Notes under the pieces: generated by a model | The model's input: the letters and a program-made list of their open reading frames with translations, nothing else | Databases searched by the model: none | What the model was told of the DNA's origin: nothing | NCBI GenBank assembly: GCA_001803645.1 | Contig: MHDW01000175.1 | Location: 11,407-17,858 of the forward strand | Direction: 5' to 3' | Source of the DNA: Nitrospirae bacterium GWC2_42_7 | GTDB lineage: Bacteria; Nitrospirota; Thermodesulfovibrionia; Thermodesulfovibrionales; UBA6898 | DNA: 6,452 bases | In this document: one piece after another, positions 1,743 through 3,947 of the stretch | How positions within the stretch are numbered: position 1 is the first letter of the stretch | Layout: each line of letters begins with the position of its first letter | Translations under genes and position numbers: made by a program

Positions 1743-3947
1743 TTATTTCCCCTTCTTTTTCTTCCAGTCAGCTAAATGATGACAATACTCGCAGCTTGCA
1801 CCAAACACACCCTTATGCGGGTCTTTGTGGCAGTCTCCGCATAATTTGAATTTGGCGACTTTGAATGAGGCTTCACCCGGCGCAGCATTCGGATTCTTTT
1901 TATGGCAGTCGCCGCATTTTACTTTTTCATGCTTGCCTTCAAGCTTGTACTTTGAATCACGGTTGTGATCGAACTTAACATCTTTGCCTTTCCAGCTCGC
2001 ATAGTTATGGCATTGTAAACAGTTTGACTCCAGTTCACTGCCGTGCGGGTCTTTATGGCAGTCAGTGCAGAGTTTAAATTTAAGACCGCGCAGAATCGCT
2101 GTGCCAAGCGCAGCATTGGCAGGCCTCGGCTTATGACAGTCAACACACTTGATTTTGTCGTGTTTGCCTTCAAGCTTATATTTCGAGTCCTTATTGTGAT
2201 CGAACTTAACATCTTTGTCTTTCCAGCTTGCATAGTTATGGCATTGTTCGCACTTTGACCCCAGTTCATTGTTATGGGGGTCTTTATGGCAGTCAGTACA
2301 GAGCTTGAATTTCATATTTCTGAACTGGGCAGTCCCAAGCGCAGCATTGGCAGGCCTTGGTTTATGACAGTCAACACACTTGATTTTATCGTGTTTGCCT
2401 TCAAGTCTATATTTAGAATCTCTGTTGTGGTCGAACTTCAGATCCTTTCCTTTCCAGCTTGAATAGTTATGGCATGATTCACATTTCGACCCAAGATCAT
2501 TATTATGCGGATCCTTATGACAACTTGTGCATAGGTCATATTTAAAGCCTTTAAAGACAGCTGTGCTCATGTCGGTGCTTCCCTGTTTTGTAGGCTTATG
2601 GCAGTCAACGCACTTTATAGATGCATGTTTGCCCTCGAGTCTGTATTTCGAATCTTTATTGTGATCGAACTTCAGGTCTTTGCCTTTCCATCCAACTGCA
2701 GAATGGCATGTCTCGCATTTTGAGCCAAGACCGTTATTATGCGGGTCTTTGTGGCAGTCTGTGCATAGTTCAAATTTCATGCCCACGTATAAACCTTCAG
2801 GAGCTCCCTTTGGTCTTCCCTTATGGCACTTTTCGCATTCTTTTATTTCAGCATGCTTGCCTTCGAGTTTAAACAGGGCTTCATTGTGGTTAAATTCTTC
2901 TTTCTCGAACTTTATTATTTTGCCGAGGGCTTCTGCCGGATGTTCCCTGTGGCATTTAATACATTTTCCTTTACTGTTGCCATGATAACCTAATTTCTCT
3001 TCTCTTCTTTTCTTGACGAGTTTATGGCACTCCATACATTTTTCATCTTTTAGTTCACCCGTGTATTCATGGCATGCTGTGCATTTGTTAAGTTCTTTCA
3101 GCTGATGTGCCCTTGAAAGCTGGCTGGGCCTTATTATGGAGTTGAATTCCTTGCCGAGGGTTGCGCCTTTTTTGAATACGCCAAAACCAACTATGCCGAG
3201 GACGACAGTCATCAGAAGTATCACTACCTCAGCGCTCATGAACATACTGCTTTCGAGTTTTTTCTCCTTGGGGTCTTCTTTCCTTTGTTGAGCGTAAACG
3301 CCTTCTACAACTTTCTCTCTCTTATACCCGAGGGTGAGTGAATGATGATGTGCAATATAAGATTTTGGAACCCATCCGTGGAATATTCCCCAGAGACCCA
3401 CACGGGTCGACGGGTTGATGAAGGAAAGATACAGGTGTCCGCCTACAGTGGTGACTGCCATGAAGAAAAGGGCTGCATGAAGGTACCAGGCAAGAAGAAT
3501 GGTGCCGAAGAACCACATTATTGCGCCGGTCACGGTAAAGGCTATGACATAAAAAAACACCAGCAGGCTGTTTACCTTCTGGCCTGTATTGAACTTCCCT
3601 GCAGGGGGAATTTCTACTTTATGGTCTATGATGGCTTTCACGGCGAGGAACATCCATTTGGCGTCATCATAACCTAATCCGAAGAACTCTCTGAGATTAG
3701 AAAGGTTTAATCTCGGCCCGATAAAGAAGAAAGTGATTCCCATAGCTATAGACCATATTGCTGCTACGGTCCGGTGGAAAAATCTCATTAGATTGAGGGT
3801 TTCTCCGCTTATATCCGAAAATCTTGCATATATCATGAGGCCGCCACTCAGGAGCAGGAGAAGAAACGGGATGGCATTGACCCAGTGAAGTATTATCTCT
3901 GAAGTCTGGAACCGTCTGAACAGATTAGGATTTGAATTTCTTTCCAT
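1743..3947 (-). CDS. fusion of membrane di-haem cytochrome b (formate dehydrogenase gamma/b561-like) and 18-haem cytochrome c
   Basis: A 734-residue predicted membrane electron-transfer protein. Residues 1-210 form a four-helix cytochrome b domain (helices about 19-41, 57-77, 126-147, 151-177). His21, His58, His157 and His171 are spaced like the four haem b ligands of formate dehydrogenase gamma (FdnI), and a 'GWVPKSYIAHHH' segment follows helix 4. Residues 205-235 are very rich in K/R/E and probably cytoplasmic. A fifth helix (237-258) would carry the rest to the periplasm. From 289 to 723 there are 18 CXXCH haem c motifs, at C289, C304, C329, C371, C395, C411, C446, C473, C489, C524, C550, C566, C601, C627, C643, C678, C703 and C719. 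Extra His in KDPH, FDHN and EGKH could be the distal ligands. Likely role: exchange between membrane quinones and periplasmic partners; direction and partner are unknown. Start ATG 3947 has GAGG at 3955-3952, a rather short 4-base spacing, and a second GAGG further up. Confidence 0.9.
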   Translation of the reverse strand: MERNSNPNLFRRFQTSEIILHWVNAIPFLLLLLSGGLMIYARFSDISGETLNLMRFFHRTVAAIWSIAMGITFFFIGPRLNLSNLREFFGLGYDDAKWMFLAVKAIIDHKVEIPPAGKFNTGQKVNSLLVFFYVIAFTVTGAIMWFFGTILLAWYLHAALFFMAVTTVGGHLYLSFINPSTRVGLWGIFHGWVPKSYIAHHHSLTLGYKREKVVEGVYAQQRKEDPKEKKLESSMFMSAEVVILLMTVVLGIVGFGVFKKGATLGKEFNSIIRPSQLSRAHQLKELNKCTACHEYTGELKDEKCMECHKLVKKRREEKLGYHGNSKGKCIKCHREHPAEALGKIIKFEKEEFNHNEALFKLEGKHAEIKECEKCHKGRPKGAPEGLYVGMKFELCTDCHKDPHNNGLGSKCETCHSAVGWKGKDLKFDHNKDSKYRLEGKHASIKCVDCHKPTKQGSTDMSTAVFKGFKYDLCTSCHKDPHNNDLGSKCESCHNYSSWKGKDLKFDHNRDSKYRLEGKHDKIKCVDCHKPRPANAALGTAQFRNMKFKLCTDCHKDPHNNELGSKCEQCHNYASWKDKDVKFDHNKDSKYKLEGKHDKIKCVDCHKPRPANAALGTAILRGLKFKLCTDCHKDPHGSELESNCLQCHNYASWKGKDVKFDHNRDSKYKLEGKHEKVKCGDCHKKNPNAAPGEASFKVAKFKLCGDCHKDPHKGVFGASCEYCHHLADWKKKKGK
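1746..2765 (-). repeat. tandem tri-haem modules within the cytochrome gene (period 228-234 bp)
   Basis: Coding repeats, each about 77 residues with three CXXCH motifs and three further His (KDPH, FDHN, EGKH). Module boundaries by residue are 395-472, 473-549, 550-626, 627-702, and a final two-haem partial module 703-734. In bases these are 2765-2532, 2531-2301, 2300-2070, 2069-1842 and 1841-1746, so the steps are 234, 231, 231 and 228 bp. A degenerate half module (residues about 352-394, haem 4) precedes them. Module ends such as 'CVDCHKPRPANAALGTA' (residues 524-540 and 601-617) are identical in protein and nearly so in DNA. The pattern indicates growth by internal duplication. Confidence 0.9.

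Follow-up and report, generated by a model that had tools for sequence, protein, structure and literature searches.

A b-first fusion of an FdnI-like cytochrome b domain and an 18-haem cytochrome c in a Nitrospirae bacterium: a candidate menaquinone:cytochrome c oxidoreductase

We analysed a stretch of 6,452 nucleotides (the window) from Nitrospirae bacterium GWC2_42_7 (contig MHDW01000175.1, positions 11,407 to 17,858 of the forward strand). A single gene in this window joins a membrane domain resembling FdnI, the gamma subunit of Escherichia coli formate dehydrogenase-N, to a multihaem cytochrome c (Table 1). An earlier note on this DNA, made from the sequence alone, had given the exact coordinates of the gene and left its strand unsaid. 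The open reading frame (ORF) starts with an ATG at position 3947 and runs down to 1743, and the plus strand across the same interval is riddled with stop codons. The 18 CXXCH motifs that the note had reported were recovered in this frame, with motif starts from residue 289 to residue 719, while 2,000 shuffles of the fusion protein contained on average 0.12 and at most two such motifs. Five separate hydrophobic peaks (residues 23, 60, 128, 150, and 240) are all located N-terminally of the first CXXCH. The union of an FdnI-like b domain and 18 CXXCH motifs in one frame is confirmed.

Table 1. The fusion gene, its parts, and the adjacent hydrogenase genes (positions in the window; pLDDT, predicted local distance difference test score)
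Feature	Position	Strand	Description
Whole fusion gene	1743..3947	minus	734 amino acids: FdnI-like b domain, charged linker, fifth helix, 18 CXXCH
FdnI-like cytochrome b domain	3321..3947	minus	about residues 1-209, four helices; candidate haem ligands His21/58/157/171; KFNTGQK at 118-124
Charged linker	3270..3320	minus	about residues 210-226, predicted cytoplasmic; pLDDT <50 at 206-215 and 218-222
Fifth helix	3159..3269	minus	about residues 226/227-263 (helix in model), predicted to lead into the periplasm
18-haem c domain	1743..3107	minus	residues 281-734; six modules of 71-78 amino acids with three CXXCH apiece; PF14522 match
[NiFe] hydrogenase large-subunit C-terminus, b-type cytochrome, HyaD/HybD-type maturation protease	1-1666	plus	converging on the fusion gene

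The N-terminal domain matches PF01292 (Ni_hydr_CYTB) over residues 12-180 with 52.6 bits, above the gathering score of 30.1, and the b-domain profile built in this analysis over residues 2-209. The best structural match of the modelled protein is E. coli FdnI (1kqf_C), covering residues 5-212. The four histidines for which formate dehydrogenase gamma-type spacing had been noted align with His18, His57, His155, and His169 of FdnI, the haem b ligands of that protein; the second histidine had been about four residues out of register in an earlier pairwise HMMER alignment with FdnI. The KFNTGQK segment is likewise in register, so that the resemblance extends over the fold, the four histidines, and the shared motif K(F/Y)NxGQK. 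The model for formate dehydrogenase gamma subunits (TIGR01583), which has an equivalog cut-off of 115.85 bits, gave a score of 67.2. Therefore, we rejected an identity as formate dehydrogenase gamma subunit and call the domain FdnI-like. FdnI is a separate subunit that receives its electrons from FdnH, whereas the fusion bears a c-haem tail after its fifth helix. As to adjacent genes for catalytic and iron-sulfur subunits of a formate dehydrogenase, the neighbours in the window encode hydrogenase and efflux proteins; the rest of the contig was surveyed by its ORF starts.

The charge distribution was determined for the regions between the helices. The stretch from residue 178 to 238 contains ten lysines or arginines and six acidic residues, the loop between helices 2 and 3 seven and five, and that between helices 1 and 2 one and two, respectively. 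The hydrophobic peak of the fifth helix spans residues 240-258 and reaches a value of 2.51. Assuming the orientation of FdnI, the four helices are predicted to bring the chain back to the cytoplasm and helix 5 to lead it out to the periplasm. Attachment of c-type haem requires export of the CXXCH region. The FdnI-type b domain and the b-first order described in the earlier note are supported, and so is a single helix connecting them to a multihaem domain for which export is expected.

The modular construction of the c domain is also visible in the DNA, where a repeat with a period of about 231 nucleotides comprises four copies of a 215-nucleotide unit spaced 231-234 nucleotides apart; three of them share 66, 75, and 81% identity with the copy taken as reference. 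Besides the histidines of the CXXCH motifs, the c region holds 19 further histidines, whereas its four methionines do not amount to one per module. Bis-His ligation is therefore possible for all 18 haems. Fifteen of these 19 histidines are invariant or at least 90% conserved in a 19-row alignment, and 11 in a 39-row alignment. A profile search of the PDB with the c domain returned 3ov0 at the top (1.3e-14; labelled cytochrome c family protein), which we take to be GSU1996, then 1kqf_C, and then high-molecular-weight cytochromes c. The presence of 1kqf_C among these matches is explained by the full-length fusions that were included in the profile alignment. Judged by sequence, GSU1996 is the nearest relative of the c domain, and both consist of tandem three-haem modules. 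GSU1996 is described as monomeric and periplasmic, and each of its four modules contains one His-Met haem (PMC10138318). In contrast, the fusion has six modules, sufficient histidines for all of its haems, and a tether to the b domain, and the pattern of one His-Met haem per module is absent.

The earlier note had set the b-first layout apart from known b/c fusions, but it recurs. Two protein searches, in each of which just under 8,000 candidates were scored, gave 2,984 and 2,946 matches; the 120 best of each were combined into a set of 178 proteins (177 best-listed ones and the window protein), some of them fragments. A b domain followed by CXXCH motifs was found in 84 of these. Thirty-three, including the window protein, have a short N-terminus and 7-25 CXXCH, and 51 have more than 150 residues ahead of the b domain and carry 17-26 CXXCH. 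The reverse, c-first order occurred in none of the 178, 94 of which lack a b domain by our profile. In public databases, such fusions have been named automatically, for example as 'formate dehydrogenase gamma subunit'. A scan of genome contigs, which relied on two peptide patterns only, yielded 307 loci with a relative and fusions at 11 of the 80 that were retained. Two of these fusion loci (L012 and L013) belong to one Nitrospirae metagenome-assembled genome, and the others (L014-L022) to Verrucomicrobiota, Opitutae included, and to one record labelled 'bacterium'. Two pattern matches in viral contigs were not relatives.

Within the taxonomic order of the window, 57 of 149 sampled genomes gave some match, and long fusion matches were restricted to two, the genome of the window itself (70.8% complete, 238 contigs) and G028 (96% complete), whose frames are the same as those at L012 and L013; this agrees with an origin of the window in the phylum Nitrospirota. 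All remaining matches reached at most 58.4 bits, many of them frames of about 205 amino acids spanning the b domain only. Among the genomes sampled from this order, the b-first fusion is rare. Three copies of this kind of b domain are present in the window's own genome and two in G028. A second own-genome fusion copy (L009, 8129-10319 of contig C39 of G000, as this genome was labelled) is split over two frames with four and 12 CXXCH, which may reflect a sequencing error or a broken gene. Partial copies lie at the ends of contigs C15 (L010, 1-709) and C173 (L011, 3-530) and are perhaps the two ends of one further paralogue.

A tree was built from 109 b domains, of which 34 came from fusions, 15 from proteins with a long N-terminus, and 60 were unfused, the last two groups being subsets. 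All fusions fall into one clade (100/85). The sole 'unfused' row within this clade, L003, is an own-genome copy cut by a contig end. As the unfused rows had been selected for their resemblance to this profile of fusions, and long branches occur among them in several cases, the tree favours a single origin of the fused b domains but is no proof of it.

Among known systems, CbcL, MtoC, and MtrH (Geobacter and others) resemble the fusion in combining an FdnI/HydC-like di-haem b domain and a periplasmic multihaem c domain in one chain, and they have been proposed to act as quinone:cytochrome c oxidoreductases. CbcL carries nine c-haem motifs in its N-terminal half and six helices in its C-terminal half (PMC6295460), whereas in the window fusion the b domain leads, and there are 18 c-haem motifs and five hydrophobic peaks. 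The earlier note was right to set the two apart by their domain order. Its statement that known fusions have fewer haems holds for the nine of G. sulfurreducens CbcL, but the homologues of this protein contain 3 to 23 CX2CH motifs and, in a few cases, five helices (PMC6295460). Membership in the CbcL family was rejected, since domain order and helix number differ; by analogy, CbcL is the nearest functional counterpart. Mco and CbcBA are also comparable, as a b subunit is paired with a multihaem c protein into a membrane-carrier:cytochrome c oxidoreductase. In Mco of ANME-2, the cytochrome b gene is followed by a separate gene for a 7-11-haem cytochrome, while the window fusion is one chain. 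In the accessible parts of the open-licence literature searched for such proteins, we found no description of a b-first fusion; an already characterised family, which the earlier note had named as a possible refutation, was not encountered there. The b-first fusion is apparently recurrent in public data but undescribed.

We consider it likely that the fusion is a one-piece menaquinone:cytochrome c oxidoreductase with a built-in periplasmic wire. Direct evidence covers its anatomy: the uninterrupted reading frame, the resemblance to FdnI in sequence and modelled fold, the aligned histidines and KFNTGQK segment, the hydrophobic fifth helix, the CXXCH motifs with their 19 further histidines, motif conservation, the modules, and the recurrence. 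Its quinone chemistry, haem binding, electron path, location, and direction are inferred as follows. In the membrane, the FdnI-like part would take electrons from menaquinone or donate them to it. FdnI-type quinone sites lie on the cytoplasmic side, and by the geometry of FdnI, the quinone would bind near the cytoplasmic face beside haem bC. Electrons would then pass via haem bP to the first c-haem, which would be kept close to the membrane by helix 5, and onward along the bis-His haems of the six-module tail to periplasmic or outer multihaem cytochromes.

Several observations weigh against this reading. Residues 260-288, just past helix 5, include six lysines or arginines and two acidic residues, so that a periplasmic position of this stretch is not favoured by the positive-inside rule. 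The c domain was modelled weakly, with mean pLDDT values of 40-82 for blocks of ten residues in the whole-protein model, and a mean pLDDT of 58.7 and a predicted template modelling score of 0.28 when modelled alone. Hence, the structure prediction suggested by the earlier note brought out the match of the b domain to FdnI but was too poor for the c domain to demonstrate haem stacking. Multihaem structures were absent from the best 50 rows of each whole-model fold search, which excludes nothing. The number of CXXCH motifs varies from 7 to 25 across the short-N-terminus relatives, some of them fragmentary; this spread is compatible with a modular tail but speaks against a strictly required length. 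The MtrB/PioB porin (PF11854), the only porin type searched, was found above cut-off in 19 of 41 genomes but was unmatched in both carrier genomes, the window's own being incomplete. The check for porin-cytochrome complexes that the note had suggested was thus negative for MtrB/PioB, and an Mtr-type conduit was discarded as a candidate. Finally, the own genome has a dsrA-like match, and the hydrogenase encoded next to the fusion gene comes with a separate cytochrome b (TIGR02125, 161 bits; cut-off 121.5), so that inward electron flow is possible as well.

An assembly or annotation artefact, by which two genes would have been fused by chance in a metagenome assembly, is highly improbable. The genome is indeed fragmented, and its related copies are broken in contigs C39, C15, and C173. 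But the same order is found in 83 other listed proteins and at both loci of the Nitrospirae genome mentioned above, and the fused b domains cluster in the tree. Because of this recurrence and grouping, we rejected a chance fusion. It is also unlikely that the protein is chiefly a membrane-tethered electron capacitor, the haems of which store electrons without a link to an outer-membrane conduit. Such a role would agree with the varying CXXCH number, the unmatched MtrB/PioB porin, and the nearest solved chain, 3ov0, which we take to be GSU1996; GSU1996 has been described as an electron-storage device (PMC10138318). However, being tethered to a quinone-reactive domain accords with a relay function, and giant multihaem proteins are present in both carriers: a protein of 2,054 amino acids with 22 CXXCH, adjoining ResB, a cytochrome c assembly protein, and an NHL-repeat protein, on contig C206 of the own genome, and in G028 a frame with 26 CXXCH that is truncated by the contig end and measures at least 2,045 amino acids. 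Extracellular exchange therefore stays plausible, the self-contained conduit for metal reduction put forward in the earlier note being a hypothesis.

The direction of flow is closer to balance. By established redox-loop reasoning, a protein with a cytoplasmic-side site of the FdnI type would conserve energy as proton-motive force when electrons run inward and consume it when they run outward. The protein could thus be an electron entry module that mainly takes electrons from periplasmic or extracellular cytochromes (originating from a partner cell, Fe(II), or H2) and reduces menaquinone for the reduction of sulfur compounds while building proton-motive force, which we regard as possible but doubtful. 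It would be in line with the retained FdnI-like quinone-site segment, the dsrA-like match of 310 bits together with the lack of a COX1 match in the own genome, and the fact that none of three QrcD matches, the best at 65.8 bits, exceeded the curated threshold of 570; for CbcBA, inward flow has been proposed in Seep-SRB2 (PMC10553843). On the other hand, nothing in the sequence fixes a direction. Being partial, the dsrA match falls short of the family cut-off of 392.85 bits, the model also giving sub-cut-off matches in eight of 14 control genomes, and missing genes mean little in a genome of this completeness. NrfA was rejected, its one match being below cut-off (18.4 against 24.1 bits). Geobacter CbcL serves low-potential acceptors, that is, outward flow (PMC9129911). 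Overall, we consider CbcL-like outward flow with oxidation of menaquinol somewhat more likely than inward flow.

Beyond the proposed oxidoreductase function, we tentatively put forward a wider scenario that may well fail as a whole. The protein might be a single-chain, quinone-anchored wire crossing the periplasm with 18 bis-His haems in a row, a number sufficient to approach the outer membrane, so that menaquinol would be wired to outer multihaem cytochromes without a diffusing carrier. Its reach might be set by the gain or loss of three-haem modules. Such b-first quinone wires might form a family of their own, apart from CbcL, of which a large branch, in Verrucomicrobiota among others, might have gained a cytoplasmic, AAA-like DUF6079 front region. 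The step from the quinone pool across the periplasm is a bottleneck of extracellular respiration, and the Geobacter model involves quinone oxidoreductases and diffusing cytochromes (PMC12307469). With a quinone-type domain and a long haem array in one chain, a single purified protein could test whether a fixed wire replaces the diffusing step. Moreover, the b-first fusion could serve as a marker for candidate electroactive bacteria in uncultured groups.

As for the surroundings, the fusion gene seems to stand alone and is oriented opposite to its neighbours. On the flank opposite to the hydrogenase genes, the plus strand encodes a YtkA-like protein, an OEP efflux protein, and a CusB-like protein; the contig of 17.9 kb stops 2.5 kb past the start of the fusion gene. 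A terminator-like consensus match lies between the hydrogenase genes and the fusion (1713-1739), one of six such sites compared with 2.5 expected from shuffles. A promoter scan gave 11 sites against 5.5 expected and was not used for any reading. Because the hydrogenase is encoded on the opposite strand, has its own cytochrome b, and is separated by the terminator-like match, we do not tie it to the fusion and rejected it as a partner. At L012 and L013, where ORF starts were inspected by eye only, no hydrogenase was recognised beside the fusion.

The front region of the long-N-terminus proteins was also inspected. DUF6079, which corresponds to a BrxC-type AAA region, was detected by Pfam scan in all three proteins scanned (P0009, P0022, and P0025), and a Walker-A motif in three of five checked (P0025, P0132, and P0140). 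The word 'cytochrome' does not occur in a BREX paper treating DUF6079, and a fusion of ATPase, cytochrome b, and multihaem domains looks unusual.

Further multihaem loci were observed in the own genome. At L166 (3663-15645, contig C206) and L137 (4501-9884, contig C59), an NHL/FG-GAP repeat protein is encoded in a cluster together with a 5-CXXCH protein and a large multihaem protein, which at L137 is cut by the contig end with eight CXXCH. An unfused cytochrome b is accompanied by multihaem proteins with nine and seven CXXCH at L131 (8948-11402), and by a 13-CXXCH protein and an HmcC-like NrfD protein (422 bits, cut-off 550) at L139 (7796-11443).
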